Assembly: GCA_030528125.1 (NCBI GenBank)
Contig: JAUMZM010000007.1
Span: 1 to 46,931, forward strand
Direction: 5' to 3'
DNA: 46,931 nt
Source of the DNA: Tissierellia bacterium
GTDB lineage: Bacteria > Bacillota > Clostridia > Tissierellales > Peptoniphilaceae
Position numbers and translations under genes: made by a program. Positions 78 through 18,197 of the stretch are shown piece after piece; the first letter of the stretch is position 1; each line of letters starts with the position of its first letter. The notes under the pieces were generated by a model, which saw only the letters and a list, made by a program, of their open reading frames with translations, was not told the origin of the DNA and did no database searches.

Positions 78-1172
78 TTATTCATTTAAAGCTCTATCTA
101 CATTTCTTATAAAATCTTGTACATTAGTTACCATAGAAACGGCTGTTATTGTTCCTCTATCTGATAGCTTATTAACGGCAAATTCTTGAATATCCACAGT
201 ATACATATATACAGGTCTTACATTTCCATCAAATACATTATAAGATGGTGTCATATTTCCTGTTGCTATTGTAAATAGTATTGCAGACATCATTATCATT
301 GTAGATGTTTTTCTTGAATGTCTTCTCATTTCATTTTGTGCTTCATAGACATTATCAATTGTCTCTGGAAGTCCTAATCTATCACGAATAGTTCCTGCAA
401 TCACAAGATCTACTCCACATTCTATACAAGCTTTTACAAATCCATCTTTAACATTTCCACTTTCAACAAGAGCTTTTGTTGATCCATATTTTCTTGCAAG
501 GTTGATTGTTTCGAATAAATTTCTTGTTGTATTTTGCTCTCTTTCGAAATGTTCTTGTCCCCAGGAAGTACCAAATATTCCTTTTTCAAGATCAAATGCC
601 GCAGTTTCTGTTCCACAGAATATTGCTTGTACATATCCATTTCTTACAAGTCTTTCTAAAGCTAAGCGTGAATCATCATCAAGTGATAATGCTGATCCTA
701 CTACAAGTGTTACATAGCCATTGTTCTTTTTTTCGTATTTTAAAACTTTATAAAGTGTATCATAATCTATTGAATAAGCTGTTTCTCTTGAACGTCCTGA
801 TCTAAATGCAAATGTATCTTTTGTTTGATCTCCTTGAAGGAAACCTTGAGTCCATACATATATTCCTTCTGAAGCATCTTCTGTACGTCCGATTACTACT
901 TTATCACCTTTTTTTAAATTTCTAAATTCTACTATATTTACACTTTCTTCTCCTGGTGTGTCATTTGCAACACATACTGTATCCATTCTTGATTGGTCTG
1001 CAAGAACCCATTTGTCATTTATCTTGAAATATTCTGGAAAAACTGAAAGCGCATGATAATTTCTAGGACTTAATCCATCTACTTTAACTTCTTCAAGTTT
1101 GGCATTTGGTGCATCTATAAATTTCTTTTGATTAAAATCAGGATGATGATATTTTGGCATTTCAAATTTCAT
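78..1172 (-). CDS. Diverged paralog of archaeal-type ornithine cyclodeaminase (LOR/SDH-like family)
   Basis: 364 aa. The C-terminal two thirds align well with the gene just upstream (1172-2347) and with the TIGR00300/ArgZ C-terminal family: a Rossmann-like start VVGSALSLDDDSR, then GTSWGQ, SGNVKDG, AGTIRDRLGLPE, GNMTPSY and MVTNVQDF. In the canonical family the loop reads roughly SIRDDGPLPD; here it is TIRDRLGLPE, and the usual GNALATHD-type segment has become GTETAAFD. Key substrate or nucleotide contacts may therefore have changed. Its ATG overlaps the stop of the upstream paralog by one base (TAATG), so the two are translationally coupled and may form a hetero-oligomer. Family members convert ornithine to proline plus ammonia using NAD. 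Family assignment is from motif memory; catalytic activity of this copy is uncertain. Confidence 0.7.
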   Translation of the reverse strand: MKFEMPKYHHPDFNQKKFIDAPNAKLEEVKVDGLSPRNYHALSVFPEYFKINDKWVLADQSRMDTVCVANDTPGEESVNIVEFRNLKKGDKVVIGRTEDASEGIYVWTQGFLQGDQTKDTFAFRSGRSRETAYSIDYDTLYKVLKYEKKNNGYVTLVVGSALSLDDDSRLALERLVRNGYVQAIFCGTETAAFDLEKGIFGTSWGQEHFEREQNTTRNLFETINLARKYGSTKALVESGNVKDGFVKACIECGVDLVIAGTIRDRLGLPETIDNVYEAQNEMRRHSRKTSTMIMMSAILFTIATGNMTPSYNVFDGNVRPVYMYTVDIQEFAVNKLSDRGTITAVSMVTNVQDFIRNVDRALNE

Positions 1173-2347
1173 TATTCTGTTTCTCCTTTGTCTTCTTCAG
1201 ATTTGTTCTCTACTTTTGCATAATCCATCTCTTCTATTTCCATCTTATCGAAGAGTTTTTTATCTGCTTCATTTATTAGAGCTTTTTGACAATTAACAAC
1301 AAAATCTTGTACATTTGTTACCATTGGAACAAACGCTACATTCTCTCTTGCTGCTCCAACCTTATTTACAACATTTTCTGTTACATCTATTGAATACAAG
1401 AATACTGGAGAAATACTTCCATCTTGTCTTATCTTATAACTTGATGCCATATTTCCAACTGATAAGCTATGAAGCATTGTAGCAATACAAATTATTACTG
1501 TAGCTTTATCTAATTCTTTTTTGGTTTCAGTTAATGCTCTTTCTGTATCACCTATTACTTCTGGAAGTGGTCCATCATCTCTTATTGATCCTGATAATAC
1601 AAATGGAATATCCATATTTGAAAGTGTCTTTATTATTCCATCTTTTACATTTCCTTCAGCTATGAACTTTTTAATAGAACCTGTTGTTCTTACTTCATTA
1701 AGTAAATCTAGATGGTTATAATGTCCCATTGGAACATTTTGCTGTGTATAGATATTTTGTCCTAGAGCAGTTCCCAAGAATCCTCCTTCAAGGTCATGTG
1801 TACACATTGCATTTCCGCCAAGTAGGCAGTTTATATAACCTGCTTCTGCTAATTGGTTTAATGCTCTTCTTGTATCATAGTCAAACACTACTGATGGTCC
1901 CAATACCCAAACTATATATCCATCCTCACTATCTCTTTCATGTTGTAATAACTCAAAAAGATAATCATAATCTTTTGAAAAGGAGGTTTCGACTGCTTTA
2001 CCAGGTGTTGAAAATACTTCTTTAGGAAATCCCTCTTTATATAATAAGATTCCTTCTTCTAAATCAACCTTTTTGGCAATTACGACTTCATCGTCTTTTT
2101 TGATATCTCTTATTTCTTTTATTATGAAATTATCATCTTTTAAGACTGCAACGCAATTTAATGAATTGTGTTCTGGTAATTTCCAATCTCCATTATACTT
2201 ATAAAATGTAGGCATGTGACTTGTAAGATAGAACCCATCTGGTGCAACTCCATCTTTTTGTGCTTTAGCTAGTTTCACATTAGCTGCATTTTGGTACTTT
2301 TCTTCTTGGAAATTTGGTTTTTCAAATTTCGGTAATCTAAATTCCAT
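1172..2347 (-). CDS. Ornithine cyclodeaminase, archaeal type (LOR/SDH-like, TIGR00300 family)
   Basis: 391 aa. This copy keeps the family's conserved segments: VLGPSVVFDYDTRRAL (nucleotide-binding start), GGNAMCTHDLE, GTALGQ, EGNVKDGI, SGSIRDDGPLPEVIGD, MLHSLSVGNM, SIDVTENVVNK and PMVTNVQDF. Characterised relatives (Methanococcus-type enzyme, C-terminal part of cyanobacterial ArgZ/AgrE) turn ornithine into proline. The C-terminus ends in a charged tail (about residues 370-391) not seen in the downstream paralog. It has a good ribosome site, AAAGGAG, five bases before the ATG, and begins one base after the stop codon of the ClpB-like gene. With ornithine carbamoyltransferase in the same cluster, it would feed arginine-derived ornithine to proline. 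The pathway role is inferred. Confidence 0.75.
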   Translation of the reverse strand: MEFRLPKFEKPNFQEEKYQNAANVKLAKAQKDGVAPDGFYLTSHMPTFYKYNGDWKLPEHNSLNCVAVLKDDNFIIKEIRDIKKDDEVVIAKKVDLEEGILLYKEGFPKEVFSTPGKAVETSFSKDYDYLFELLQHERDSEDGYIVWVLGPSVVFDYDTRRALNQLAEAGYINCLLGGNAMCTHDLEGGFLGTALGQNIYTQQNVPMGHYNHLDLLNEVRTTGSIKKFIAEGNVKDGIIKTLSNMDIPFVLSGSIRDDGPLPEVIGDTERALTETKKELDKATVIICIATMLHSLSVGNMASSYKIRQDGSISPVFLYSIDVTENVVNKVGAARENVAFVPMVTNVQDFVVNCQKALINEADKKLFDKMEIEEMDYAKVENKSEEDKGETE

Positions 2348-2348
2348 T

Positions 2349-4874
2349 TTACACTCCTTTATTTATTTGATTTACAACAAATTTGTCATTTTCAATAGTA
2401 AGTTTTATCTGTGAAAAATCTTTGAGTTTCTTTTCTAAGAACTCTTTAGAAATTTCATAATATATCTCTTGTTCAAAAATCTTTTGTATTTGTCTAATAT
2501 CTAAGTTATTTTCTATTACAATATTGTAGAATTTTGATATAAACTCATCACTTGTTACCAGTTCTATTTGATGATCTTTTAAGTTATCTTTTAATCTTTC
2601 TATATTTAAATTTATAATTTTCTTTATATCATATTCTTCTAATTTTTCTATATTAAAAATATAATCAACATAATCATATAAGTTTGTTTGAAGCTTATCT
2701 TCTAATGCTATATCTTTGTCCAAATCATTTCTAATGCTCATAACTATTATGGCATTATTTAAGTTTATATTTCTACCTTTGTTATCTTTTATCTTTCCTT
2801 CTTGTACTATTTGAATTATCAAATTCTGTATTTCTCTATTAGCTTTATCTACATTTTCAAATAGCACCACACTATAGGGCTTTGTCCTTATAGCCTCTGT
2901 AAGTGCTCCTCCGCTTTCATAACCTATATATCCTGGAGGTGCTCCTATGAGCTTAGTTATTGAAGATTTTTCGCTAAATTCGCTCATATCAAATCTTATA
3001 AAGCTCTTTTCTCCTTCATAAAGATAATCTGAAAGCAATTTAGCAAAATAAGTTTTGCCACTTCCTGAAGCTCCAGTTATTATAAAGCTTAAAACAGGCT
3101 TTTTAAAATCAACTAATCCACTTTTTGAAATCATGTATTTTTTTAATACTTTATCAATCATCTCACTTGCGCCTATAAATTCTTTATTTAGGCTTTCTCT
3201 TATATTATCCAAGTCTGTGAGTCTATCAGAATTTATCTTTCTTTTTGGCATTGCTGATAGTTTTGATATGATTTCTTTTACTTCATTTTCTGTAACTTTT
3301 GTCTTTAATGGATAATATGGTTCTTTTGATTCTATCTTATATAAATCATCTTCTAGTTTCTTCTTAGTTTCTATTAAATCATCAAGCTTATCTAAATCTC
3401 TTTTGGACTTTGCCTTTTCTATATCAAATTCCAATAGATAAATATCTCTATTTTTGTTTAAAATATTTTCTTGTCTTTCTTTTTCAAGATTATATAAGTT
3501 TGTCTTATCTTTTAGTTCTTTTTCTAATTTTTGTATTTGCTTTTCTTTTTGAAGATTTATTTTTTGGGAAAGTTCATTTTTTTCACTATTTAATGCAATC
3601 TTTTCCATTTCAAGTTGAACTATTTTCTTGTGTAGATTGTATAATTCTTCTGGCTTTTGATCTCTTGCAATCTTTACAATTGCACAAGCTTCATCTATAA
3701 CATCTATTGCAACATCAGGCAGCTTTCTTTCTGTAAGAAATCTTTTTGATAATTTTGCTGCTTGTATTAAAGCTTTATCTGTTATTTTTACAAGATGATA
3801 ATTCTCATATTTTACTTTTATTCCTCTAAGTATTGCAACAGTTGTATCGATATCTGGTTCATCTACCAAAATCTTTTGAAATCTTCTCTCTAATGCTCTG
3901 TCTGATTCGATATATTTTCTGTATTCTTCTATAGTTGTAGCACCTATTGTAAGGATTTCTCCTCTTGCAAGCATTGGCTTTAGTATATTTGCAGTATCCA
4001 TTGCTCCGCTAGATGCTCCACTTCCAATTATGTTATGAATCTCATCTATAAATAATATGATTTTTCCATCGGAATCTCTTACTATTTCAAGAATTCTTTT
4101 GAGTCTATCCTCAAAATCTCCCCTGTACTTCGCTCCAGCAACTAGAGATGATATATCAAGTGAAAATACAAGCTTTTCTTTTAGATCATCTGGCACGTCG
4201 CCATTGGCTATTCTTTGTACTATTCCTTCTACGATAGCTGTCTTTCCAACTCCTGCTTCTCCTATAAGTACAGGGTTGTTTTTTATTCTTCTACTTAATA
4301 CTCTTATTGCATTTCTTGTCTCTTCTTCTCTTCCAATTACAGGATCTAATTTTCCTTCATTTGCTTCTTTGGTAAGAACTCTGCCATATTTATTTAGATA
4401 ATTGATAGTTTCGTTATCAATTCCTTTTATCAATTCTTCATTAAATTTCTTTGAAATTATTTTTTCTAAATTCTCATAAGTTAGTCCATGAAGTTTTGCA
4501 ATTTTGGCACTTTGATTATCTCTATCTTTTAGTATCGCAAGTAATATATGATACGGATAGACTTTATCAGAATATTGATTTCTTGAAATCTCTTCTGAAA
4601 TCAAAAGAACTTTTTGATAAGATCTTGATGTAAATAGATTTGTAAGACCTTTGGAGCTTCTAAGTTTACCTATGGCATTTACTAAATCATCTTTTATGTT
4701 TTCTGCTATTATATCAAGCTCTCTAAAATATTCTCTGATTTTATAATCAGAAGTTAATATAATAGCATAGAATAAATGCAAATCAGAAACTTCAGAATTA
4801 TTATAGCTAATCGCAAGTTGATTTGCTTTTTTTATTGTATTTATAGCCTTTTCGGTATACTTAGAAATATCCAT
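2349..4874 (-). CDS. ClpB-type AAA+ ATPase with degenerate second ATPase domain
   Basis: 841 aa from the ATG at 4874, which overlaps the upstream stop (TAATG); a further six codons to an in-frame TTG are unlikely. Order: Clp N-domain (1-145), NBD1 with Walker A GEAGVGKT (205-212), pore loop AKYRG (249-252) and Walker B LFIDE (about 274-278), a ClpB-like coiled-coil middle domain (about 405-520), then NBD2 with Walker A GASGSGKT (601-608) and pore loop GYIGYESGG. In NBD2 the Walker B, normally ending in DE, reads VVLFENVDKA (E673, N674). The sensor segment TSNLGS is replaced by MSIRND, and the arginine-finger stretch FLNRVDEI is NLYDYVDYIF. NBD2 can probably bind but not hydrolyse ATP. Normal ClpB is a disaggregase; being embedded between transport and ornithine genes suggests a dedicated client. 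Confidence 0.85.
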   Translation of the reverse strand: MDISKYTEKAINTIKKANQLAISYNNSEVSDLHLFYAIILTSDYKIREYFRELDIIAENIKDDLVNAIGKLRSSKGLTNLFTSRSYQKVLLISEEISRNQYSDKVYPYHILLAILKDRDNQSAKIAKLHGLTYENLEKIISKKFNEELIKGIDNETINYLNKYGRVLTKEANEGKLDPVIGREEETRNAIRVLSRRIKNNPVLIGEAGVGKTAIVEGIVQRIANGDVPDDLKEKLVFSLDISSLVAGAKYRGDFEDRLKRILEIVRDSDGKIILFIDEIHNIIGSGASSGAMDTANILKPMLARGEILTIGATTIEEYRKYIESDRALERRFQKILVDEPDIDTTVAILRGIKVKYENYHLVKITDKALIQAAKLSKRFLTERKLPDVAIDVIDEACAIVKIARDQKPEELYNLHKKIVQLEMEKIALNSEKNELSQKINLQKEKQIQKLEKELKDKTNLYNLEKERQENILNKNRDIYLLEFDIEKAKSKRDLDKLDDLIETKKKLEDDLYKIESKEPYYPLKTKVTENEVKEIISKLSAMPKRKINSDRLTDLDNIRESLNKEFIGASEMIDKVLKKYMISKSGLVDFKKPVLSFIITGASGSGKTYFAKLLSDYLYEGEKSFIRFDMSEFSEKSSITKLIGAPPGYIGYESGGALTEAIRTKPYSVVLFENVDKANREIQNLIIQIVQEGKIKDNKGRNINLNNAIIVMSIRNDLDKDIALEDKLQTNLYDYVDYIFNIEKLEEYDIKKIINLNIERLKDNLKDHQIELVTSDEFISKFYNIVIENNLDIRQIQKIFEQEIYYEISKEFLEKKLKDFSQIKLTIENDKFVVNQINKGV

Positions 4875-6058
4875 TATATTAAAATCCTCCAAATCAAATT
4901 AGCAGCAATTCCTGCACATATTCCACCAATAGTATGGCAAAATATTGCATTTCCTGTCATCTCTTTTGTTTTTAGAGCATCCATCATAGCTATATGAGTT
5001 GACAAATATCCTGACCAACACATGCATATTGATGTAAATACTGCTATATCATTTGCTCCTATTACATTTCTTTGAGCCATATCTGCAACCATTCCTATTG
5101 CAGCTCCACTACTTCCTAATGCTGTTATTGGTACTGCTATTGCTTCAGGTGTTGAAAACCCAAACAAAGGATTTATTATAAAGCTTATCTTTTCTCCAAT
5201 TAATGGTAACAATGCAATTCCTTGGTTTGCAGATCCATCATATACTCCAGCTGCTCCAGGACCATTTGTAAGCATTATTACTAATGTACATATTAAGCAA
5301 ACTCCAGGAATTATTGCAACTCCCATATCAACTCCAACTTTTCCTCCATCTAGTAGGGCCGATATAAATCTTGCTGGAGGGGTTCCCTCTCTTATCTTTC
5401 TATATCCTATAGGTATTTCTTCTTTTAAAGTAGTTGCTACCCATTCTTCTGTTCCATAGTATTTTTTGGTCCTACTAATCATAAGCCTAACAGAAACTAC
5501 ACTTCCAATGCAAGCGCCTAGTAATCCTATCAAGGATCCTTTTACTGCTTTATCAATTGGCAAAGCCATCATTGATGTTACTGTTATAAGCCCCATTCCA
5601 AATGATGTTCCAAGGTTTGTAAGTGCAGGCATCTGATACTTTTTAAAGTATTTTCTAAAGTTATCATCATAAGCTAGAGTTAAAATTGCAGGATTATCAG
5701 ACATAAAGCAATTAAGAACTCCTAAAGAGCTTGCCCCTGGTAGATCATAAATAGGCTTCATAAGTACAGAAAGCCCTCTATTTACAAGAGAAATAACTCC
5801 AAACTCAGAGAAAATTTGTGATATTCCACCAGCAATAACTGCAACCGCCATAAGATATAAGCATACATTCATCAAAAGATCATAAGATGTCATCATCATA
5901 GTCTTTATCATATTAGTAGCTCCCATAATACTTGAAAGATATGCAAAAAATCCTATAAACAAAGCAAGAAATATAAATGCCTCTAAGCTTATTTCCTTTT
6001 TAAAGTTTATTTCATCTGTTAATTTAATGCTTTTTCTTTTCCTTACTATTCTTTTCAT
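4874..6058 (-). CDS. CD0519/CD1768-type membrane protein with nucleoside-recognition (gate) domains
   Basis: 394 aa, strongly hydrophobic, roughly eight to ten membrane segments, with the repeated gate-like segments around SLGVLNCFMSDNPAIL and FGFSTPEAIAVPITALGSSGAA. I recognise the family found in Clostridioides as CD0519/CD1768; its function is not established, though gate domains occur in nucleoside transporters and spore-maturation proteins. I chose the ATG at 6058 because AGTAGG lies six bases upstream; an in-frame ATG at 6073 and a TTG at 6091 lack a ribosome site. The basic N-terminus (MKRIVRKRKSIK) should be cytoplasmic. It lies first in a coupled four-gene run (stop/start overlap with the ClpB-like gene). 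A terminator-like hairpin lies just upstream, so expression probably needs read-through from the symporter gene. Confidence 0.75.
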   Translation of the reverse strand: MKRIVRKRKSIKLTDEINFKKEISLEAFIFLALFIGFFAYLSSIMGATNMIKTMMMTSYDLLMNVCLYLMAVAVIAGGISQIFSEFGVISLVNRGLSVLMKPIYDLPGASSLGVLNCFMSDNPAILTLAYDDNFRKYFKKYQMPALTNLGTSFGMGLITVTSMMALPIDKAVKGSLIGLLGACIGSVVSVRLMISRTKKYYGTEEWVATTLKEEIPIGYRKIREGTPPARFISALLDGGKVGVDMGVAIIPGVCLICTLVIMLTNGPGAAGVYDGSANQGIALLPLIGEKISFIINPLFGFSTPEAIAVPITALGSSGAAIGMVADMAQRNVIGANDIAVFTSICMCWSGYLSTHIAMMDALKTKEMTGNAIFCHTIGGICAGIAANLIWRILI

Positions 6059-6094
6059 AAAAAACCTACTCATAATAAAATTATTATTCAATTT

Positions 6095-6120
6095 AAAAAT
6101 CCGGTATGTACCGGATTTTT
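6095..6120 (-). terminator. Bidirectional terminator-like hairpin between symporter and gate-protein genes
   Basis: Arms AAAAATCCGG and CCGGATTTTT around a 6-base loop. It sits immediately after the symporter stop codon (6122-6124) and only about 35 bases ahead of the next start codon. There is little room for a promoter after it, so it may reduce rather than end transcription into the downstream genes. Confidence 0.65.
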
Positions 6121-6121
6121 T

Positions 6122-7488
6122 CTATTTTTTCTTTCCCGGATAATATTTTGGATTTTTGAAGAAATCATTTACAAGTTCTTTGACCTCTCCGCTAAGTAAT
6201 ATCATTCCGATCATATTGGTAAATACAACAAGACCCAATGTAGCATCTAAGAATGCTCCTGCATTATCAAATGATACAAATCCACCTAAAACTATCATCA
6301 AGCAAGCTACTAATCTTACGATTTTACCTACTGTAGTTCCAAATAAATATTCTCCTTGTTTTTCAGCATAAAATACAATTACAATTATTGTAGATAATAC
6401 AAATAAGAATAAGCTTATTGATATAATAGTTGTTCCTATATTTCCAAATGTATCATTAAATGCTCTTTCAACTCCTATATCTTTCATTTCGGGATTTTCC
6501 CAAAGTCCAGTTACAAGAACTAATAATACAGAAATTGTACAAATTATTATAGTATCTGAGATAACTTCAAATATTCCCCACATACCTTGACGACAAGGAT
6601 GATCTGTAACTGCAGTTGCGTGTGCATAAGGTGCAGAGCCCATACCAGCTTCATTAGAATAGCATCCTCTTGCGGCACCTGCTTTTATCATTTGAGAAAT
6701 ACCATGTCCTGCCATTCCTCCTATAACTGCTGTTGGATGGAATGCACTTTTAAATATTATGCCAAAAGCATAAGGAACTTTATCTATATTTATAAAAATT
6801 ATAACAAGTCCTGCTATTATGTATATTGCAGCCATTATAGGAACCATTTTTTCTGTTATTTGAGCTATTCTTTTGATTCCACCATAAGCAACTAATACTA
6901 CAAGTATTGTTATGATAATAGCACCTACAACTCTTGATAATCCCAATTGTTCCAAAGGTCCTACTGCTGAAATTGTTTGCAATGTAATTGAAGGTAGTAT
7001 CTCAATCATAAAGAAAAATGCTACAAGAAATCCCATTATTTTTCCTAGAGTTCCTCCAATTCCTTTTTTGAAAGTATATGCAGGTCCTCCAATGAATTCT
7101 CCATCTTCATTTTTCTCACGGTATTTGATACCTAGGGCTATCTCTGCAAATTTTGTTCCTTGTCCAATTATTGCAGCAATCCACATCCAAAACAATGCTC
7201 CAGGTCCTGCAGTAAATACTATAGATGGTGCAACTACAATATTTGCAGCACCAATAGATGATGCAAGAGCAGCTGTTGCTGCAGCAAATGCTGAGACAGA
7301 ACCTTCTCCATTGTTTTCTTTGGCAAACATCTTTCCAAAAGTTTGTTTTAATATAAATGGTAGATATCTTAATTGAACAAATCCCATTCTAACAGATAAT
7401 AACAATCCTCCACCTAGTAAAACAATAAGGATAGGCCCCCCCAAAAATAATTGGTAGCTTTAACTATTCCGTCTATTAAATTATTCAT
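6122..7488 (-). pseudogene. AGCS sodium:alanine/amino-acid symporter, frameshifted at a G7 tract
   Basis: The main reading frame (from about 7444) encodes an AGCS-family carrier with the conserved GSVSAFAAATAALASSIGAANI, GPGALFWMW, GGPAYTFKKG and SNEAGMGSAPYAHA segments. It lacks the expected N-terminus. That N-terminus is present just upstream in another frame: ATG at 7488 with GGAG seven bases before it encodes MNNLIDGIVKATNYFWGG and then stops at about 7414. The two frames meet at seven Gs (minus strand; 7436-7442). An eighth G would give a 455-residue protein reading FWGGPILIVLL, as in the family. So the gene is intact except for one missing base: a sequencing error, a true mutation, or slippage-based switching. 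It lies between argF and the gate-protein gene; the substrate may be an amino acid of the arginine/proline route (inferred). Confidence 0.8.
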
Positions 7489-7507
7489 AATCTTACTCCA
7501 TGTTTTT

Positions 7508-7534
7508 GTATGCTGAGGATAATCCTCAGCATAC
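7508..7534. other. Perfect 13-bp inverted repeat between argF and symporter gene
   Basis: Arms GTATGCTGAGGAT and ATCCTCAGCATAC separated by a single A. On the minus strand it follows the argF stop by ten bases and precedes the symporter ribosome site, but it is followed by AAAAACA rather than a T-run. It is therefore not a standard terminator. A mRNA-stabilising or processing hairpin, or a protein-binding palindrome, are the likely roles. Confidence 0.7.
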
Positions 7535-7544
7535 TAGAACTATT

Positions 7545-8537
7545 CTATTTTAATGTAGCATACATTACAGCTTTTATAGTATGCATTCTATTTTCTGCTT
7601 GATCAAATACAAGAGATTGTTTTGATTCAAATACCTCATCTGTAACTTCTATTGCTTCCATTCCATATTTTTCATAAATTTCTCTACCAACTTTTGTTCC
7701 TTTGTCATGGAATGCTGGTAGACAATGTAAGAAGATTGCTTCTTTCTTAGCATTTTGCATAACTTCAGTTGTAACTTGATATTCTCTTAGAAGTTTGATT
7801 CTTCTTTCCCATTCTTCTGCAGGTTCTCCCATTGAAACCCATACATCTGTATAGATTACATCTGCATCAGTTGTAGCCTCTTTTACATCTTCTATAAGTT
7901 CTACTGTTGAGAAATGTTCTTTAGCAATTTCTTTTGCTTTTTTTACTAAATCTTCTTCTGGGAATAATTCTTTTGGAGCACAAGCTACAAAGTTTACTCC
8001 TAATTTTGCACAAACAATCATCAAAGAGTTAGCCATATTATTTCTAGCATCACCCATGTATACGAATTTTAATCCTTTAAGATATCCAAAATGTTCTTCC
8101 ATTGTAAGCATATCTGCAAGCATTTGTGTTGGATGCCATTGATCTGTAAGTCCATTCCATACAGGAACTCCAGCATATTTTGCTAATTGTTCAACATGTT
8201 CTTGTTTGAATCCTCTAAATTCAATACCATCAAACATTCTTCCAAGAACTCTTGCAGTATCTGCAACAGATTCTTTGTGACCCATTTGGGATCCTGTTGG
8301 ATCTAGGTATGTAACTCCCATTCCTAAATCATGAGCTGCTACTTCAAAAGAGCATCTTGTTCTTGTAGACGTTTTCTCAAATATTATTGCTATATTTTGT
8401 CCTTCTAAATATTTGTGAACTGTTCCTGCTCTTTTCATTGACTTAAAGTCTTTTGCTAAATCAAGTAAATAACGAATTTCCTCTGGTGTGTAGTCAATTA
8501 ATTTTAAAAAACTTCTTCCTCTAAGATTTTGTCCCAT
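7545..8537 (-). CDS. argF: Ornithine carbamoyltransferase
   Basis: 330 aa, usual family length. It has the carbamoyl-phosphate motif STRTR (near residue 57), the HPTQMLAD segment, the ornithine-loop motif VSMGE and the catalytic [10 protein letters not shown]. It catalyses ornithine plus carbamoyl phosphate to citrulline plus phosphate, or the reverse in the arginine deiminase route. The sequence resembles the catabolic ArcB group, and the neighbours (amino-acid carrier, ornithine cyclodeaminase family) also suggest catabolism; no other arginine-biosynthetic or arcA/arcC gene is in the window. Start ATG is preceded by AAAGGAG eight bases upstream. It is the first gene of the leftmost minus-strand cluster and diverges from an AraC-type regulator. 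Confidence 0.95.
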
Positions 8538-8845: not shown

Positions 8846-10063
8846 ATGTCTAAAAAAGCAATTAGAATTCAAGGTTTAGAAGATAGAATATTATTAAATG
8901 ATTCTTTTATAATAGATTTTCAAGTTCAAGAGGACAAATCAAAAACACAGCCACTCCTGCATAAATATAGTAGATTCATCTATATTATAGAAGGAAATGG
9001 CAAAATAAAAATCCAAGAAAATATATATCAATTAAAAAAAGGAAGCGTGATTTCAATCCTTCCTTGGCAATTTTCTGAGATTGTTGAAGTCAAAGAAACA
9101 TTAAGATATTATCTTTTGGTATATGATTTTGGTTATCTTAATATGTATATCAAAAATTTCATGGATTATGATTCAAATAATTTCATCGAAACTTTGTACA
9201 ACGGTGTATCTGTCATAGATAATGATGATAATTCTTATGATTTCAAAATAATATTTGAGCAAATAAATATAGAGCTTCAATCTAATATAATAAATGATAA
9301 AAAAATATTTTCGCATATTTATCTTACGGGAAAATTTGCAGAAATTTTCATATTATTTCTTAGAACTATAGAATCTAAGAATAATAAAGTAAATCAAAAG
9401 CCTGTTATAGCAAGTATTTTTGCATATATTTTTGTAAATTCTTCAAAGGATTTGACTTTAGAAAACTTATCAAAGATTTTCCTTATGAGTCCATCCTCTA
9501 TTTCAAAATATATATCGAAAGTAACCAATCTAACTTTTACTGATATATTACAAGAGATTAGACTTTATAAGACAAAATTCCTTTTAAAAAACACAAATTT
9601 TACTTTAGATGAGATTGCAAAAATCGTAAATTATAATGATTCTTCTCATTTATCAAAAGTTTTCTCTACTAATGAAAATATCAAAACCAAAGAATTTAGA
9701 AAGATCTATAGCACTTTTAAAACCATAAACAACACAAAACTAGATGATAAGTCTCCACTTGTAATAAATTACATAAAAGATAACTATGATAAAGATATAA
9801 ATATTATAAGCGTAGGCGATGAATTTGATATTTCATCTAAACAAGTCAATAAGATTTTGAGTTTCTATTTTGAAGAAAACTTCATTACATTTTTAAATAA
9901 GTATAGAGTTCATAAAGCTTGTGATTTATTAGTAGAAACAAATTACAATACAGCTGACATTGCACATATTGTAGGTTTTAATTCTAATAAAACATTCTAT
10001 AGAAATTTTATCAAATATATAGGAGTTACACTTTCTGAATTTAGAAATACTCATATTAAATAA
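8846..10063 (+). CDS. AraC-family regulator with two tandem DNA-binding domains
   Basis: 405 aa, longer than the usual 280-300. Residues 1-110 look like a cupin-type sensor (HKYSRFIYIIEGNGKI, then KKGSVISILPWQ). Two separate AraC-type helix-turn-helix domains follow. The first spans about 188-288 (SPSSISKYISKVTNLTF, then FTLDEIAKIVNYNDSSHLSKVF). The second spans about 306-404 (DISSKQVNKILSFYFEENF, then YNTADIAHIVGFNSNKTFYRNF, ending in LSEFR). A normal AraC domain already contains two HTH motifs, so this protein carries four. It diverges from argF and is the natural candidate to control the ornithine cluster, though it could also act on the convergent nickel operon or elsewhere. The ligand is unknown. 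Confidence 0.85.
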   Translation: MSKKAIRIQGLEDRILLNDSFIIDFQVQEDKSKTQPLLHKYSRFIYIIEGNGKIKIQENIYQLKKGSVISILPWQFSEIVEVKETLRYYLLVYDFGYLNMYIKNFMDYDSNNFIETLYNGVSVIDNDDNSYDFKIIFEQINIELQSNIINDKKIFSHIYLTGKFAEIFILFLRTIESKNNKVNQKPVIASIFAYIFVNSSKDLTLENLSKIFLMSPSSISKYISKVTNLTFTDILQEIRLYKTKFLLKNTNFTLDEIAKIVNYNDSSHLSKVFSTNENIKTKEFRKIYSTFKTINNTKLDDKSPLVINYIKDNYDKDINIISVGDEFDISSKQVNKILSFYFEENFITFLNKYRVHKACDLLVETNYNTADIAHIVGFNSNKTFYRNFIKYIGVTLSEFRNTHIK

Positions 10064-10095
10064 GCAGAGTTAAATTAATATTAATCTCTGCTTTT
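10062..10095. terminator. Bidirectional terminator between AraC regulator and nickel ABC ATPase
   Basis: Arms AAGCAGAG and CTCTGCTT around an AT-rich, partly paired middle, with T-rich tails on both sides. It overlaps the regulator's stop codon and the last codons of the convergent ATPase gene, so it can end both transcripts. Confidence 0.7.
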
Positions 10096-10698
10096 ATTAT
10101 TGATGTATTCTAGATCTATTATTCTATCTGACATCTTCTCTACAAGACTTTTGTTATGTGAAATAAGTAGTATTCCTATATTTCTTTTTTTATTTATATC
10201 TTTTAGAACTTTCATTATCTTTAATTGGGTTATAGAATCTAACATAGTTGATATTTCATCTGCTACTATGTATTTTGTATTTGGACTTAGAATCCTTGCT
10301 ATAAGGACTCTCTGTAATTCTCCACCTGATAATTCAACAGGAAATTTATCAAGCCAAAATTCCTCTATACCAAGTTCTTCTTTCGTCTTTTTATCAACTT
10401 TCCATCCCTCATTTAGAATTTTTCTGATCTTCCATCTATTATCTACGTTTTTTTCTGGAGATTGATGAACCATCTGAACAGGGAAAAATCCAGATATATC
10501 TGATATATTCTTGCCATCTACAATAATATCCCCTGCATAATCTCTAATATATCCAGATATTATTTTCCCAAGTGTTGATTTACCATATCCAGATGGTGCT
10601 ACAAGTCCTACAATTTCATCATCTCTTATTTCAAATGATATATTATTTATAATAGGCTTTTTGTTATAAGAAAAGCTTAAGTTTTTTACTTCTATCAT
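10081..10698 (-). CDS. nikE: ABC transporter ATPase, nickel/peptide type, second subunit
   Basis: 205 aa, short for the NikE/OppF class (usually about 250-320). Walker A is APSGYGKST, the signature is LSGGE, Walker B is YIVADE, and the switch His is in LLISHN. It should pair with the ATPase encoded just upstream to power nickel (or peptide) import through the two permeases. It starts eight bases after that gene, with GAGG as ribosome site. It is the last gene of the lar-nik operon; its 3' end lies within a bidirectional terminator. The nickel assignment comes from context with larE, larB and larC, not from the ATPase itself. Confidence 0.8.
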   Translation of the reverse strand: MIEVKNLSFSYNKKPIINNISFEIRDDEIVGLVAPSGYGKSTLGKIISGYIRDYAGDIIVDGKNISDISGFFPVQMVHQSPEKNVDNRWKIRKILNEGWKVDKKTKEELGIEEFWLDKFPVELSGGELQRVLIARILSPNTKYIVADEISTMLDSITQLKIMKVLKDINKKRNIGILLISHNKSLVEKMSDRIIDLEYINNKSRD

Positions 10699-10706
10699 AA
10701 TTTCCT

Positions 10707-11480
10707 CTATAATATAAATTCATTTTCTGGAAGGGATTTTATGAGCATTTTCGAATATGGATTTTTGAGATTTTCTCCATTATTCTTAAAATCATCTCTA
10801 TCTTCTATCTCGATTATCTTGCCATCATAAAATATTGCAATCCTATCTGCACATTGAAGTGCCATATTGATATCATGGGTTATTATAAGAGCTGACTTAA
10901 AATCTTCTTTTATTCCTTTGAAAAAGTCTATAGTACTTTTTACACATTGTTGATCTAATCCAGGTGTAGGCTCATCTGCAATTATTAAATTTCTATTTTC
11001 TAATACAGAAATTAACAAAAGAACTTTTCTTGCCATACCTCCTGATAATTGGAAAGGATACATACTATCTATTTCTAAAGGTAGATTTAGATTATCATAT
11101 ATTGCTTTCTTCTTTTCTAAATCTATATCTTTAATCATAAATTTTAATTGACTTTTTATATTTAGATATGGATTTAGTGAGTTTATACTCTGTGGAATAA
11201 ATGATATTTCATTTTTTCTTATAGTTTCTATATTGCTAGAATCTATAATTTTTCCCTTATAAAAAATCTCTCCTGAAGTCTTTGCATTATACGGCAATAT
11301 GTCTAATATAAAATGAGCCAAAAGGCTCTTTCCTGAACCTGATGCTCCAAAGACTGCAAGAATTTCATTTTCTCTAATATCTAGATTTAAATTTTTTATT
11401 ACATCAATTTTCCTTCTTTTAAGTCCTTTATCATATTGTATAAATGACATATTCAAATTTTTAACTTCTAATACATTCAT
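10707..11480 (-). CDS. nikD: ABC transporter ATPase, nickel/peptide type, first subunit
   Basis: 257 aa from the ATG at 11480, chosen because AGGTGA lies four to five bases upstream and the start falls four bases after the preceding stop; a TTG further upstream has no ribosome site. Walker A is GASGSGKS, the signature LSGGM, Walker B LIIADEPTPGLD and the switch His is in LIITHD. It belongs to the NikD/OppD class. With the second ATPase it should form the heterodimeric motor of the importer. Transport of nickel is inferred from the adjoining pincer-cofactor genes. Confidence 0.8.
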   Translation of the reverse strand: MNVLEVKNLNMSFIQYDKGLKRRKIDVIKNLNLDIRENEILAVFGASGSGKSLLAHFILDILPYNAKTSGEIFYKGKIIDSSNIETIRKNEISFIPQSINSLNPYLNIKSQLKFMIKDIDLEKKKAIYDNLNLPLEIDSMYPFQLSGGMARKVLLLISVLENRNLIIADEPTPGLDQQCVKSTIDFFKGIKEDFKSALIITHDINMALQCADRIAIFYDGKIIEIEDRDDFKNNGENLKNPYSKMLIKSLPENEFIL

Positions 11481-11484
11481 TTTA

Positions 11485-12336
11485 TCACCTGTGGTATGCA
11501 AAAGGATCTATAAATTTCTTTAAATTATCACCCAAACTATTAAAACACATTATAACTATAACTAAAATAATACCAGGAAAGAGTACCAAATGCCAATATC
11601 CTTGTATCAAATACTTCATTGATTCTTGTAAAATCACACCTATTGATGGATTGGATATATCAAGACCGAATCCAAGAAATGTTATAGATGACTCATGGAG
11701 TATAGCATGCGGAATTAAAAGTATTACTCCAACTATTATCTGTGGAATTAAATTAGGTAAAATATGATTTATAGCTATATATAGATTTGATTTTCCCATA
11801 GCTTTGGATATTTTTATATAATTTTCATTTTTTATCTGAAGAATTTCCCCTCTAATTATTCTTGTCAAAGACGGCCAATGGGTTATGGCAAGCCCTGCTA
11901 TTACCCCTTGTCTTCCTCTTCCAAGTGCAACAGATATCAATATAAGAAACATCATGTGCGGAATTGACATAAATACATCTGTTATCCGCACCACAAATCT
12001 ATCGATTCTTTCATTTCCTATAGAAACTAATAAAGAAAAAACAAGTGCTATCAAAAGGCTTATAAATGCTGATATAGTTCCTATTGATATAGAATTATAA
12101 AGCCCCTTTATTGTTCTAAGATACATATCTTTGCCCTTAGAATCTGTACCAAAGATATGATTTTTTGATGGCAAATTTAACTTGTTAGAAAAATCTATAG
12201 CTAAGCTATCATCTGAAATCATACTTCCATATATCATAATATATCCTAGTATGAGTGATGTTATTATTAATATTATAATTGTCTTAGATCTTAAAGAAAA
12301 TCTATCGTTCTTTTTTGTATTATTTACTAATTCCAT
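11485..12336 (-). CDS. nikC: ABC transporter permease, NikC/DppC type
   Basis: 283 aa, about five or six membrane segments, with the BPD_transp_1 coupling region around SKAMGKSNLYIAINHILPNL. The N-terminus includes the short extracytoplasmic stretch GTDSKGKDMYLRTIKG typical of DppC/OppC proteins. I chose ATG 12336 because AAAGGAG lies five bases upstream. The start lies 17 bases inside the end of the preceding permease gene, so the two are coupled. Pairs with the other permease to form the membrane channel. Confidence 0.85.
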   Translation of the reverse strand: MELVNNTKKNDRFSLRSKTIIILIITSLILGYIMIYGSMISDDSLAIDFSNKLNLPSKNHIFGTDSKGKDMYLRTIKGLYNSISIGTISAFISLLIALVFSLLVSIGNERIDRFVVRITDVFMSIPHMMFLILISVALGRGRQGVIAGLAITHWPSLTRIIRGEILQIKNENYIKISKAMGKSNLYIAINHILPNLIPQIIVGVILLIPHAILHESSITFLGFGLDISNPSIGVILQESMKYLIQGYWHLVLFPGIILVIVIMCFNSLGDNLKKFIDPFAYHR

Positions 12337-13303
12337 TTTTGCTCCTTTGTCTAGGATCAATCAAAGTATACAAAAGATCAGATATTCTATTTCCAACATA
12401 TACAAATATCGAAGAAAATAGCACCAATCCCAAAAGCAGTGGCACATCTCCTCTTATACCAGCTTCTATTGTAAGATTCCCAAGTCCTGGATAATTAAAT
12501 ACATTTTCTGCAATTATAGTTCCAGAAAAAATCTCAGAAAAGCTTGCAAATTGAATTGTAATTGCAGGTACTATAAGATTTCTAAATGCATATTTAAATA
12601 ATATGTCTTTTTTGCTAATTCCCTTTGATTTGGCATATATTACATAATCAGAATTTAAGATCTCTTCTGACTTACTTCTTGTATGTAAAATTAGATTGGA
12701 TGATCCAGCAATAGCCATTGTTATAGCTGGAAGAATTATATGCTCTAATCTGTCTGTAAATAATATATCTTCTTCCAAAATCCCTGCACTTGATGCCATT
12801 GACGCAGGTAATAGTTTTAATTTTAGAGAAAAAATAATTATAAGCAAAATCCCTATCCAATATGTAGGTGTTGAACCAATTATTATCGCAAAAGTTTTGA
12901 TTATATTATCCTTTTTTGAATAAAGATTTGATCCTGCAATTATTCCAAGAGGAACTCCTATTACAAATTGAAGTATCCAAGATAGAAGCATCAATATAAT
13001 AGAAGATGTAAATCCAATCTTAATCACATCTATAACAGGCATCAAGTATATATTAGATACTCCAAGATCTCCTGTTAATAGATGCTTTATCCAATAGACA
13101 TATCTTGTAAGAAGAGGCTTATCTAAGCCCCATTCAAAGATAAGTTTTTGCTTTTGCGCTTGTGTAAGAGCAATTGATCTATCTCTTGCAAATGCTGCTA
13201 TAGGATCAATTGGAGATAAATCCATAAGTATAAATGCTATAAATGAAACCGCCAATATAAATAATAAGAACAGAAAGATTTTTCTTATTATATTTCTTGT
13301 CAT
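12320..13303 (-). CDS. nikB: ABC transporter permease, NikB/DppB type
   Basis: 327 aa from the ATG at 13303, which overlaps the stop of the binding-protein gene (ATGA); an in-frame ATG at 13342 is inside that gene and less likely. About six membrane segments. Features of the DppB/NikB class are the first-helix region, MDLSPIDPIAAFARDRS, and a coupling motif around AKSKGISKKDILFKYAFRNLI. Paired with the downstream permease. Substrate inferred as nickel from the operon. Confidence 0.85.
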   Translation of the reverse strand: MTRNIIRKIFLFLLFILAVSFIAFILMDLSPIDPIAAFARDRSIALTQAQKQKLIFEWGLDKPLLTRYVYWIKHLLTGDLGVSNIYLMPVIDVIKIGFTSSIILMLLSWILQFVIGVPLGIIAGSNLYSKKDNIIKTFAIIIGSTPTYWIGILLIIIFSLKLKLLPASMASSAGILEEDILFTDRLEHIILPAITMAIAGSSNLILHTRSKSEEILNSDYVIYAKSKGISKKDILFKYAFRNLIVPAITIQFASFSEIFSGTIIAENVFNYPGLGNLTIEAGIRGDVPLLLGLVLFSSIFVYVGNRISDLLYTLIDPRQRSKNGISK

Positions 13304-14934
13304 TTCCATTCCCAGTTGGAAACAGTATCCATTATAGTCCATCCACCACCATGTGGTTCGATCTTTTGCTTACCTATATCGAGATTATCATTTACAAGAT
13401 ACAGATGGTTTTCGTTTACAAGCCATATCCAAGGACAATCACCTTTCCAAGAAAGTCCTGTATTTCCATCCCATTGTGCTTTCTTGAAGTTTTCATTTAA
13501 GCTATCAACATCTGTTGAAGAAAGTCCTTTTTCAAAATATTCATCTACCTTGTCATTTCCATAGTAATTTGCATTGTAATAATCATAGCCTTTAAATTTT
13601 GATGAATAAGAATAATACATCTCCAATGGATCATATCCTCCCCATCCAAATAATATAGCTTCGCTATACATCTTTGGAGCTATCATATCCCAATCTCCAT
13701 AAGTAGTTTGTACATCGATACCTATTTCCTTAGCCTTTTCTTTAAAATAAAGTGCTATATCTTCTCTATCTTTATATGAATACAAGAGTTTAAATTGGGC
13801 CTTTACTCCATTTTTCTCTCTTATTCCATCATCTGACATATTCCAGCCGGCTTCATCTAATATCTTATTTGCTTTTTCTATATCTCCATCTTTTAGATCA
13901 GATGTCTCTTCATTGTACCAAGGAAGTCCATCAGCAATAGATGTTGCCTTTGTGCCTTCTCCATTTAAGACATCATCTATTATCTCTTGTCTGTCCATTG
14001 CGATATTTAGAGCTTTTCTTATAGCTATATCGCTTGTAACATCATTTCCTATTGGTACATTTTCTGCTATTTGATCACTTGTAGTCTTTTCTCCGTTATT
14101 TGGCATTACAGGCATCGAGATTCCTCTATTATCTACGGTTCTTAGAGATTCTATATGGAATCCATCGATTTTGATGTCATTTGCAGTATATGGAATTCTT
14201 ATCATGTCACATTTCCCGGTCTTTGCTGTTGCAAGTGCTTGGTTTTCATCATCGAAGAAAAGGAATGTAAGCTTTTTAAATGGAGATTTATCTCCATAAT
14301 AGTATTCATTTGGCTCTACTATAAGTTGTTGTCCTTTCTTCCATTCAACAAGTTTAAAAGGTCCAGTTCCTATTGGGTTCTTGTAATATTCATCATTGTA
14401 AGCATGCTTTGGTACAATTGCCAAATCGCACATTGAAGATGTAAATGATATATCAGGACTATTCAATACAAGCTCTACTGTATAATCATCAATCTTTCTT
14501 GCTTCTACAAATCTTGTAAGATTAACTCCTGGAGTAAGTTCTTTTTTTGCAAGATTATATGTAAATACGACATCATCTGCCTTGAAATCTTCTCCATCTG
14601 ACCATTTGACATCTTTTCTTAAATTTATAGTATAAGTTAATTTGTCATCTGATATGCTATAATCTTGTGCTAAATCTTCTACTATATTTAGATCAACATC
14701 TCTTTTTAAAAGTGCTGATTGAAATATTCTAGCACTATAGTGAGTTGATCCTTTTATGGGATCCCAACCATTATCAGGCTCACTTCCAATCCCTAATACA
14801 AGCTCGTCTTTCTTCTCTGATACATTTGTATTTGATGTAGAATCTGTAGAAATGGCATCTTTGTCATTAGAACAAGATACCAATACAAAAGCTACAGCAA
14901 AAACACAAAGTATTTTTTTAAAAAGTCTTTTCAT
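13300..14934 (-). CDS. nikA: ABC transporter substrate-binding lipoprotein (family 5), probable nickel binder
   Basis: 544 aa. Lipoprotein signal peptide with lipobox LVSC (Cys about 21) and a Ser/Asp/Thr-rich linker, so it is anchored outside the membrane. The rest is the SBP_bac_5 fold: LRKDVKWSDGEDFKADDVVF, YNLAKKELTPG, NPIGTGPFKL and DIAIRKALNIAMDR. Family members bind peptides, nickel or metallophores. Its start codon overlaps the larC stop by one base (TAATG), tying it to nickel-pincer synthesis, so nickel or a nickel complex is the likely ligand. A peptide-binding role cannot be excluded from sequence alone. Confidence 0.85.
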   Translation of the reverse strand: MKRLFKKILCVFAVAFVLVSCSNDKDAISTDSTSNTNVSEKKDELVLGIGSEPDNGWDPIKGSTHYSARIFQSALLKRDVDLNIVEDLAQDYSISDDKLTYTINLRKDVKWSDGEDFKADDVVFTYNLAKKELTPGVNLTRFVEARKIDDYTVELVLNSPDISFTSSMCDLAIVPKHAYNDEYYKNPIGTGPFKLVEWKKGQQLIVEPNEYYYGDKSPFKKLTFLFFDDENQALATAKTGKCDMIRIPYTANDIKIDGFHIESLRTVDNRGISMPVMPNNGEKTTSDQIAENVPIGNDVTSDIAIRKALNIAMDRQEIIDDVLNGEGTKATSIADGLPWYNEETSDLKDGDIEKANKILDEAGWNMSDDGIREKNGVKAQFKLLYSYKDREDIALYFKEKAKEIGIDVQTTYGDWDMIAPKMYSEAILFGWGGYDPLEMYYSYSSKFKGYDYYNANYYGNDKVDEYFEKGLSSTDVDSLNENFKKAQWDGNTGLSWKGDCPWIWLVNENHLYLVNDNLDIGKQKIEPHGGGWTIMDTVSNWEWK

Positions 14935-16151
14935 TATAATCTCTCCTTTATTTCCATTATAGAAAGGTTATTTTCTTCGGCAATTCTTGCTAAATCCTCA
15001 TATTCATATTTTTGTCTTTTCATGCCAAAACCTGAGGATTTCTTTAATCTTATTTTCCCAAACTCTGTATTGATCTCTTCTATATCTCTTTTTAGAAAAT
15101 ATCTATTCATAGAATTTTCTCTTATGCCAATTGTAGTTGTATACTTAAATATAGCTCTTACAATGGCATCCTTATTGTCTTTTTTGGTCAAAACATTTAC
15201 CATAATTCCAGGTCTTGATTTTTTCATTCCTATTGATGTTGTAAAGACATCTAATGCTCCAATTTCAAATAACTTCTTTGACATAAACCCTATCTCTTCG
15301 CCCGTCATGTCATCTACATTAAATGAAAGGTCATATATATCTTCACTCTTATCTTCCTTCTCTCCTATAATTGCTCTTACAGCATTTAACCTATCAAAGT
15401 CTTTCTTTCCCATACCATAGCCTATCTTTGAAATTTTCATCAAAGGCATATTAGAAAAATCATCTGCAAAATATTTTATAAGAGCAGCTCCTGTCGGAGT
15501 TGTAAGTTCTGATTCTATATCAGATGAATAACTGGGTATGTCTTTTATTAAATATAATGTAGCTGGAGCTGGAACTGGTAGAATTCCATGAGCACATTCT
15601 ACAAATCCTGATCCTAAGTTTAGACTAGAAGATACTATTCTATCTGGATTTAATTTATTTATAAGAAAACTTACAGCAACAACATCTGCCACTGCATCAA
15701 TTGTACCCACTTCATGAAAATGAATTTCTGATATATCAGTATCATGAGAGATTGACTCTGCCTTAGCTATTAGTTTATAAACTTCTATTGCATCATTTTT
15801 TACCTTTGGATCTAAATTTAGGGAATTAATTATATCAGTAATATCTTGTAAAGATCTATGAATATGATGGTGAGTATGTTCGTACATGTGTTCATGATCA
15901 TGCTCGTGATGGTGCTCATGGTGATTGTGATGCAAAACATCCATCTCTTCTTTCCCATCAATAGATACTTTCATATAAGAACCTACTATTCCAGATTTAT
16001 TTATTTTTATAGGTTCATATTTTACCCTTTCGATTCCAATGCCATTTAGCATATCTACTATTTCTTCTTTGTTATCAAATAATTCCAATAAGGATGCTGT
16101 AAGCATATCTCCTGCAACACCCATCTTACATTCTAAATATAAAGTTCTCAT
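14934..16151 (-). CDS. larC: LarC, nickel insertion protein of pincer cofactor synthesis
   Basis: 405 aa. LarC inserts nickel into the dithiolated pyridinium mononucleotide, using CTP, to finish the nickel-pincer nucleotide. The N-terminus MRTLYLECKMGVAGDM and the stretches HFHEVGTIDAVADVV, CAHGILPVPAPAT and ELTTPTGAALI are typical. Residues 74-98 hold 15 histidines in 25 positions, a likely nickel-storage or delivery arm. The gene is one continuous frame, unlike Lactobacillus plantarum, where larC1 and larC2 are joined by programmed frameshifting. It overlaps larB (ATGA) and the nickel-binding lipoprotein gene (TAATG), supporting one operon. Confidence 0.95.
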   Translation of the reverse strand: MRTLYLECKMGVAGDMLTASLLELFDNKEEIVDMLNGIGIERVKYEPIKINKSGIVGSYMKVSIDGKEEMDVLHHNHHEHHHEHDHEHMYEHTHHHIHRSLQDITDIINSLNLDPKVKNDAIEVYKLIAKAESISHDTDISEIHFHEVGTIDAVADVVAVSFLINKLNPDRIVSSSLNLGSGFVECAHGILPVPAPATLYLIKDIPSYSSDIESELTTPTGAALIKYFADDFSNMPLMKISKIGYGMGKKDFDRLNAVRAIIGEKEDKSEDIYDLSFNVDDMTGEEIGFMSKKLFEIGALDVFTTSIGMKKSRPGIMVNVLTKKDNKDAIVRAIFKYTTTIGIRENSMNRYFLKRDIEEINTEFGKIRLKKSSGFGMKRQKYEYEDLARIAEENNLSIMEIKERL

Positions 16152-17645: not shown

Positions 17646-17661
17646 AATACCTCCAACAAAA

Positions 17662-17703: not shown

Positions 17704-17760
17704 CATAGTATACATATTAAAATAGTCTTTTAGATATTAATGACTTTTCAAAGCCACTTA

Positions 17761-17792: not shown

Positions 17793-18197
17793 TTATAAAC
17801 TTTTTTCTATTTCACATACAGCTAAATCTATAAGATGCTTCATAGAGTAATCATTAACTCCAACTATAACATTATTGTCATGTAAAAAAGGAATTAGAAT
17901 CTTTTTTGCAAGAGATGAAGATATAGCTTCAGCCATATTTGGACTTATCTCCCCGTAAAGAGAATTAGAAAGCAATATACCAATAGGACCTACAATGATA
18001 TCTGCCCTTTTTGAATTAAATATAATGGCGTTTTCACCAGTAGCGGCCTTATCAGCACCTGCCTTTATCATATTATTAGTAGCATTGCTATTTGTACCAA
18101 CGCAAGTAATTTCCAAATCCTTGTGCTTCTTTTTAATAGTAGATATAAGCTTATTTCCAAGCCCTCCACCTTGAGCATCAATAACTAATAAATTCAT
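17793..18197 (-). CDS. DUF3842 family protein
   Basis: 134 aa from the ATG at 18197, which has AGGAG five bases upstream; an in-frame ATG at 18212 contains that ribosome site and is unlikely. The sequence has a glycine-rich nucleotide-binding-like start, MNLLVIDAQGGGLGNKLIS, followed by alternating strand/helix segments, a small Rossmann-like fold. The family is conserved in anaerobic Firmicutes but uncharacterised. It precedes larE by 147 bases on the same strand, and a TATAAT -10-like element lies near 18222-18227. The link to nickel-pincer cofactor metabolism is inferred from adjacency only. Confidence 0.75.
   Translation of the reverse strand: MNLLVIDAQGGGLGNKLISTIKKKHKDLEITCVGTNSNATNNMIKAGADKAATGENAIIFNSKRADIIVGPIGILLSNSLYGEISPNMAEAISSSLAKKILIPFLHDNNVIVGVNDYSMKHLIDLAVCEIEKSL

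Follow-up and report, generated by a model that had tools for sequence, protein, structure and literature searches.

Why should the gene of a second ClpB-type ATPase stand directly before two tandem genes of the LOR/SDH ornithine cyclodeaminase family, and what could the three products do together? The question is raised by a stretch of 46,931 nucleotides (the window), which is the entire contig C16 of a Tissierellia bacterium of the family Peptoniphilaceae (genome of 1.8 Mb, 90.8% complete) and which ends just past the last of these genes. The three genes, all on the minus strand, encode ClpB2 (2349..4874; 841 amino acids from the ATG at 4874, the start in the list of open reading frames being TTG 4892), OcdA (1172..2347, 391 amino acids) and OcdB (78..1172, 364 amino acids); one base separates the ATPase gene from ocdA, and ocdA and ocdB overlap by one base. 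Our best explanation is a two-subunit, probably nickel-pincer nucleotide (NPN)-dependent ornithine cyclodeaminase, in which the paralogs would form a heteromer with a shared active site, together with ClpB2 as its dedicated remodeller, and we estimate the probability of this combined reading at about 0.5.

OcdA and OcdB are 37% identical. With the NCBIfam model NF052526 (ODC_var, named 'putative NPN-dependent ornithine cyclodeaminase', cut-off 440 bits) OcdB reached 461.4 bits and OcdA, just under the cut-off, 438.5 bits, and with TIGR00300 ('ornithine cyclodeaminase, nickel-pincer nucleotide-dependent') both OcdB (183.8 bits) and OcdA (204.5 bits) stayed under the cut-off of 410.8. Among 199 sampled genomes of the window's order 54 had an Ocd match; a pair is present in 31 of them, a single copy in 23. 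G146 was counted as a pair genome, its halves being cut at the ends of two contigs, where the piece on C98 is most like OcdA and that on C59 like OcdB. For wider relatives named genomes were scanned, and the best 80 of 488 were kept. Sixty pair loci were read, 49 of them distinct (L045 is the A of G181, its B being taken from the genome search only; the loci L058, L129, L135, L138, L139, L144, L148, L149, L154, L155, L156 and L158, which had no Ocd label in the picking of open reading frames, were not used). A precedes B in all 49, a recurrence which makes the gene block more than a product of chance. In a FastTree phylogeny of 146 Ocd proteins, from which sequences shorter than 300 amino acids and identical rows were excluded, the A proteins (49) and the B proteins (49) each form one side of a branch with support 100; one duplication thus accounts for the pairs, and, judged by their sequences, OcdA and OcdB stem from a single old event.

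It was seen that neither chain has the full set of family-invariant residues and that both chains together do. OcdA retains GNA, the histidines and RDDGP, and is without RMD, FxF and KLxDRG; OcdB retains RMD, FxF, GNMTP and KLxDRG, and is without the histidines and RDDGP. The reference consisted of 48 single-copy relatives, of which 39 are of the ODC_var kind and 9 are classical; they share 49 fully invariant columns. The cut B of G146 (L068) was left out of the comparison. With the threshold for keeping a residue set at 80%, 16 of the 49 columns are lost in A and 15 in B, and none is lost by both, 4.9 being expected (hypergeometric P 6.6e-4); at 90% the losses are 17 and 22, again none shared (P 1.3e-6), and at 50% they are 12 and 12, none shared (P 0.02). 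In a smaller set, 17 pairs against 11 single-copy proteins, 23 and 26 of 66 columns were lost, one by both (P 8.7e-6). All these P values are guides only, since the columns depend on one another and the losses are clustered, B keeping both ends and A the middle. Looser choices of columns at the 90% threshold left 0 to 2 columns lost by both. Eleven residues (R62, M63, D64, F121, F123, Q279, G305, P309, L336, D338 and G340 in the window's OcdB) are kept in at least 47 of 48 B and lost in at least 43 of 49 A proteins; the window's own OcdA has S302 and G298 in the columns of P309 and G305, thus it keeps that one glycine. Seven residues (A180, H184, L195, H212, D258, G259 and P260 in the window's OcdA) are kept in 49 of 49 A and lost in at least 41 of 48 B proteins.

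The structural comparison points in the same direction. OcdA is 30-35% identical to its nearest solved relatives, and AlphaFold2 models reached a predicted local distance difference test score (pLDDT) of 87.8 for OcdA and 77.6 for OcdB. The fold of LOR/SDH ornithine cyclodeaminase was found, and the closest other fold, which was matched as well, is that of deoxyhypusine synthase, although at E 0.001 no deoxyhypusine synthase family is among the Pfam or NCBIfam matches of OcdA or OcdB. Deoxyhypusine synthase has, in the excerpted accounts of it, active sites which are shared between subunits, and its trypanosome form is a heterotetramer of paralogs, activated by a dead paralog. Since the complementary loss coincides with this fold match, we predict with high confidence that OcdA and OcdB constitute a heteromer with a shared active site, and the hetero-complex which the sequence-only reading had proposed for the paralogs gains from both observations. 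What speaks to the contrary is that all three conserved histidines are present in OcdA, which might therefore be active without B. It could then be argued that catalysis belongs to OcdA, and that OcdB is a regulator without catalytic function (prozyme) which only activates or stabilises it, in accordance with the strict conservation of H184, H212 and D258-G259-P260 in OcdA and with the activating dead paralog of the trypanosome enzyme. We regard this as improbable, since a mere regulator need not keep the eleven residues, those of RMD and KLxDRG among them, which OcdA has lost and which OcdB shares with the single-copy relatives.

The third protein stands apart from the usual ClpB. With the ClpB model TIGR03346 the window's ClpB2 reached 753.9-756.6 bits, far under the cut-off of 1232.1, and the same genome has, besides a two-ring Clp relative on C79, a canonical ClpB which reached 1265.8 bits. 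Other genomes were searched with a profile built from four ClpB2 proteins; a second ClpB was called at E 1e-150, and in many genomes only the first 12 candidates were scored. In the window's family (80 genomes) a second ClpB was found in 14 of 25 pair genomes and in none of the 55 others, and the distance between the ClpB2 match and the pair match was 8-27 bases in nine genomes, 1.07 kb in one and about 4 kb in four. A second batch of 26 genomes gave two ClpB proteins, the second encoded near the pair, in G028, G051, G064, G083, Facklamia languida, Peptoniphilus indolicus and Peptoniphilus sp. BV3C26. Of the rest of this batch, 15 are pair-free genomes with one ClpB or none, and the pair genomes with one ClpB are G137, G146, a Treponema metagenome-assembled genome (MAG) and A. 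tetradius. Altogether 18 of the 31 sampled pair genomes have a second ClpB, within 4.1 kb of the pair, compared with 0 of 70 non-pair genomes, and the stretches of 4 to 21 kb read about 48 single-copy relatives showed no ClpB-like gene. In the phylogenetic tree 24 pair-linked ClpB2 proteins group as a single clade (SH-aLRT 96), separate from the 19 housekeeping ClpB proteins included, a separation in which the long branches urge caution.

The sequence-only reading, which knew of no system coupling an Hsp100-type ATPase to ornithine cyclodeamination, had expected such a block to recur in distant genera, and it does: pair and ClpB2 occur together not only in Peptoniphilaceae but also in two other families of the order, a MAG of the Peptostreptococcaceae and Facklamia languida (Aerococcaceae), in the last of which pair, ClpB2 and membrane protein follow in a row. 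The association is thus not confined to this strain and its close relatives, nor is the ATPase gene unlinked elsewhere, since in all 106 genomes searched each second ClpB lies within about 5.4 kb of a pair. The supposition that the ATPase assembles or regulates the complex has nevertheless to be narrowed: 11 of the 25 pair genomes of the window's family are without ClpB2, which is therefore no obligatory part of the system. As Hsp100 proteins act as general disaggregases, ClpB2 might be considered a stress chaperone without special client, retained by operon inertia, which those 11 genomes manage without. This explanation we find unlikely, because the second ClpB is restricted to the vicinity of the pair despite varied gene order and orientation among the lineages, a housekeeping-type ClpB is present in the ClpB2 genomes too, and ring 2 has decayed in the window's subclade, unlike in a general disaggregase. 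That ClpB2 is a client-specific remodeller of OcdAB is a prediction which we hold to be plausible.

As for the rings themselves, motif reading of the window's ClpB2 showed ring 1 intact and ring 2 with LFEN as Walker B and without TSN and the arginine finger. In 14 distinct pair-linked copies, all from Peptoniphilaceae and including that of the window, ring 1 is intact and ring 2 degenerate, the Walker B glutamate being replaced by N or D and the sensor 1 asparagine and the arginine finger being lost. An intact ring 2 is found in Facklamia, L094, the A. marasmi group (likewise Peptoniphilaceae), the families f13 and f19 and the MAG of the Peptostreptococcaceae. A difficulty arises from Facklamia, L094 and the A. 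marasmi group, which have leucine in place of the ring 1 pore-loop aromatic, and from the MAG L098, which also has valine for the ring 1 Walker B glutamate: with ring 1 apparently altered in this subclade, ring 1 cannot be the sole motor throughout the clade. Anaerococcus itself (L096, L097 and L098 versus L079 and L082) holds two lineages of the module, one with a ClpB2 of degenerate ring 2 encoded directly before the pair, the other with ring 2 intact, the ring 1 pore loop altered and the gene some kb behind the pair. The proteins L041_15, L079_16 and L082_18 are Clp proteins of the flanks and not ClpB2.

Which cofactor would such an enzyme use? LarB, LarE and LarC make NPN, as stated in the excerpt of PMC7583248. 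In the window, on the minus strand, larE (16896..17645, sulfur insertion for NPN; TIGR00268, 241 bits, cut-off 150), larB (16148..16933, NPN synthesis; NF033503, 290.2 bits, cut-off 175) and larC (14934..16151, nickel insertion into NPN; TIGR00299, 204.2 bits, cut-off 90) are followed by the five genes of a NikABCDE-like ATP-binding cassette (ABC) importer (10081..14934), putatively specific for nickel, each below the NCBIfam nickel cut-offs. In the order of transcription this block (17645 to 10081) precedes the series from argF to ocdB (8537 to 78), and the gene of an AraC-family regulator on the opposite strand (8846..10063, plus), divergent from argF, separates the two. The sequence-only reading, right in part, had passed over these genes at 10081-17645, as well as the arcC gene after the pair in related loci and the decay of ring 2.

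In the sample of the order larB was over its cut-off in 65 of 199 genomes. It was present in 23 of 29 Ocd-bearing versus 10 of 51 other genomes of the window's family (P 2.5e-7). Pair genomes have it more often than single-copy genomes do (22 of 31 versus 7 of 23, P 0.005), and among the pair genomes it occurs in 17 of the 18 with ClpB2 versus 5 of the 13 without it (P 0.001). These Fisher tests, like the other co-occurrence statistics, ignore the kinship of the genomes. larC occurs in 30 of 54 Ocd genomes, the same set as larB except for G086, which has larC alone. The genes are also physically linked, in several unlike arrangements: ocdA-ocdB-larE-larB-larC on one strand (L037/L084, L070, L087); ocdA-ocdB-arcC-DUF3842-larE-larB-larC-nik genes (G104, L034/L171); in another family larE-DUF3842-larB-larC-nik genes and then ClpB2, within 17 kb of the pair (G028, L166 with L048); ocdA-ocdB-argF-membrane protein facing larC-larB-larE (G194, L165); and, in a Clostridiaceae MAG (L101), the pair with larB, larC and a nikA-like gene as its neighbours. 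The family also includes pair genomes whose lar genes lie elsewhere, e.g. G150, G156, G181 and G196.

Several observations detract from a role of NPN. larB and larC are absent from 9 of the 31 pair genomes (five of genus g10, G167, G083, G137 and G146), among which G083 is a single-contig genome with both pair and ClpB2, hence NPN cannot be shown to be required; the low share of larB in single-copy genomes, given above, is of the same kind. The solved relative AgrE, which carries the motifs of both halves, has a PDB entry titled as a complex with ornithine and nicotinamide adenine dinucleotide (NAD+). The window's genome has a LarA homolog, which, like LarA in other genomes, may use NPN. The pair could accordingly be a heteromeric ornithine cyclodeaminase with NAD+ as the hydride carrier, the lar and nik-like genes serving the LarA homolog, encoded elsewhere in the genome, and being neighbours by chance or through nickel regulation. 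This is a doubtful alternative in our estimate: 10 pair genomes carry larB without a LarA match at E 0.001, the lar genes are linked to the pair in the unlike arrangements listed, and NCBIfam labels both families NPN-dependent. By eye, in one alignment, no residue was seen which cleanly separates the OcdA proteins of larB-positive and larB-negative genomes. That NPN is the cofactor of OcdAB is predicted here with moderate confidence.

Some observations on the NPN genes stand by themselves. A DUF3842 (PF12953) protein, encoded in the window at 17793..18212 (minus), adjoins lar or nik genes in unlike arrangements (window, L034/L171, L166, L046, L040, L072), once between larE and larB, which makes it a candidate for an accessory role in the synthesis of NPN or the handling of nickel. 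Seven genomes of one genus (G021, G124, G130, G145, G152, G166, G185) have larB with neither a LarA match nor an Ocd gene, where perhaps another NPN enzyme is served. G042, G014 and G029, also of one genus, have a LarA homolog and neither larB over the cut-off nor larC, the cofactor source of LarA there not being known.

The genes around the pair indicate the metabolic context. Within 12 kb of the 49 pair loci argF was found at 18, the symporter at 14, the membrane protein at 13, the AraC gene at 12 and the carbamate kinase gene arcC at 11 (8 within 120 bases), counts which are lower bounds, as the stretches read differ in length. In related loci arcC comes after the pair, and the single-copy relative L147 sits between arcA and argF. 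In the window's genome argF is in the operon, an arcA-like gene on C43 is under its cut-off, and arcC is on C60, away from the pair. It was considered whether arcC might lie just past the contig end, and this found no support, since the genome's only arcC match is inside C60, next but one to a weakly ArgF-like gene. Proline reductase as a general proline sink was dismissed: of the 80 genomes of the family 9 have PrdA above the cut-off, and of the 25 pair genomes 4, while the window's genome does not.

The argF and arcC neighbours and the arcA-Ocd-argF cluster fit a route in which ArgF would convert citrulline to ornithine and carbamoyl phosphate, carbamate kinase would gain ATP from carbamoyl phosphate, and OcdAB would turn ornithine into proline and ammonia via a hidden hydride transfer, steps assigned from the families of the proteins. 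Ornithine cyclodeamination by OcdAB is predicted as fairly probable. The pair might instead use another diamine or amino acid (e.g. lysine or 2,4-diaminobutyrate) or work as an isomerase, for ornithine is assigned by family, the solved relatives are distant and NCBIfam itself labels the family 'putative'; with argF and arcC at that many pair loci and the cluster of the single-copy relative, we consider another substrate unlikely.

How ClpB2 would act on an ornithine cyclodeaminase of two subunits can be outlined. The single active site would take its histidine/RDDGP half from OcdA and its RMD/KLxDRG half from OcdB, and the reciprocal site would be dead. ClpB2 could pull with ring 1 alone and unfold the pair locally, in the manner of mitochondrial ClpX on 5-aminolevulinic acid synthase (ALAS), and it would probably open OcdAB for assembly or for cofactor insertion. 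According to the excerpt of PMC7077987, mitochondrial ClpX unfolds part of ALAS and so gates the binding of pyridoxal phosphate (PLP). Cofactor insertion as the task of ClpB2 is modelled on this case and is offered tentatively; still more speculative is the proposal that ClpB2 might be the first Hsp100 maturase of an NPN enzyme, one working ring opening the split enzyme so that NPN from larEBC enters the two-subunit site.

The remainder of the operon agrees with what the sequence-only reading had described, namely argF, an amino-acid symporter, a membrane protein, the ATPase and two tandem LOR/SDH genes on one strand, the last four overlapping or one base apart; coordinates, all six on the minus strand, and NCBIfam scores bear this out. 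argF (7545..8537, ornithine carbamoyltransferase) reached 443.5 bits with TIGR00658 (cut-off 280.85). The membrane protein (4874..6091, in-frame ATGs at 6073 and 6058) belongs to the CD0519/CD1768 family (586.1 bits, cut-off 300), and its gene overlaps that of the ATPase by one base. The symporter (6122..7488) is placed in the amino-acid:sodium symporter family AGCS (NCBIfam AgcS, 370.8 bits, cut-off 272.65), but its ATG at 7488 is out of frame with the body (6122-7444), the break falling at a poly-G run (7443-7449); a sequencing error, a real frameshift or switching could be the reason, and many relatives have open frames of 454-457 amino acids. Inverted repeats at 6095-6120, between symporter and membrane protein, and at 50-72, after OcdB, score as terminator-like on the plus strand only in a terminator scan. 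A hairpin of 15 pairs with a T run lies at 17667-17704 (minus), just before larE, without an Rfam match; no riboswitch was found before the lar genes, Rfam searches of the window at gathering scores and of 14800-20200 at E 1 giving no match. At 28435-29166 (plus) the gene of an ABC ATPase, followed by that of a permease, seems to be split into two open reading frames.

Every part of this locus belongs to a known family. A split enzyme with its own Hsp100 and NPN supply was not found described in the open PMC literature, nor any paper there joining NPN with ornithine cyclodeaminase or with a chaperone, most subscription papers and all bioRxiv preprints being outside the search. One compact system could address how NPN enters its enzymes, and also whether a bacterial Hsp100 serves one metabolic enzyme as a cofactor-insertion factor. 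The pair suggests furthermore that in Anaerococcus, Peptoniphilus and their kin a single enzyme is counted twice when annotation relies on profiles.

Compared with known systems, the closest is the LOR/SDH ornithine cyclodeaminase (TIGR00300; Methanococcus maripaludis 3C2Q; the C-terminal domain of AgrE/ArgZ), a single chain with all motifs, whereas here the motifs are split over two paralogs and are joined by ClpB2 and, in the window, by lar and nik-like genes. The trypanosomatid deoxyhypusine synthase (DHSc/DHSp), beside which OcdAB could be a bacterial case of one active site divided between two decayed paralogs, is eukaryotic, differs in reaction and substrate, has no sequence family match listed to OcdA or OcdB, and in the excerpted accounts appears without mention of an Hsp100 partner. 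The LarA/LarBCE system has larE, larB and larC in common with the window, where they are over their cut-offs, but the neighbouring enzyme here is a LOR/SDH pair and not LarA. The ClpB disaggregase has the same domain order and ring 1 motifs as ClpB2, which differs in being far below the cut-off, in its degenerate ring 2 and in a genome that retains a canonical ClpB. ClpX has one ring and also other clients. Mitochondrial ClpX with ALAS, in its excerpted description an Hsp100 unfoldase gating cofactor entry into one metabolic enzyme, supplies the model for ClpB2, with the differences that the cofactor there is PLP and that here a ClpB-type protein is concerned, whose gene travels with the genes of its client.

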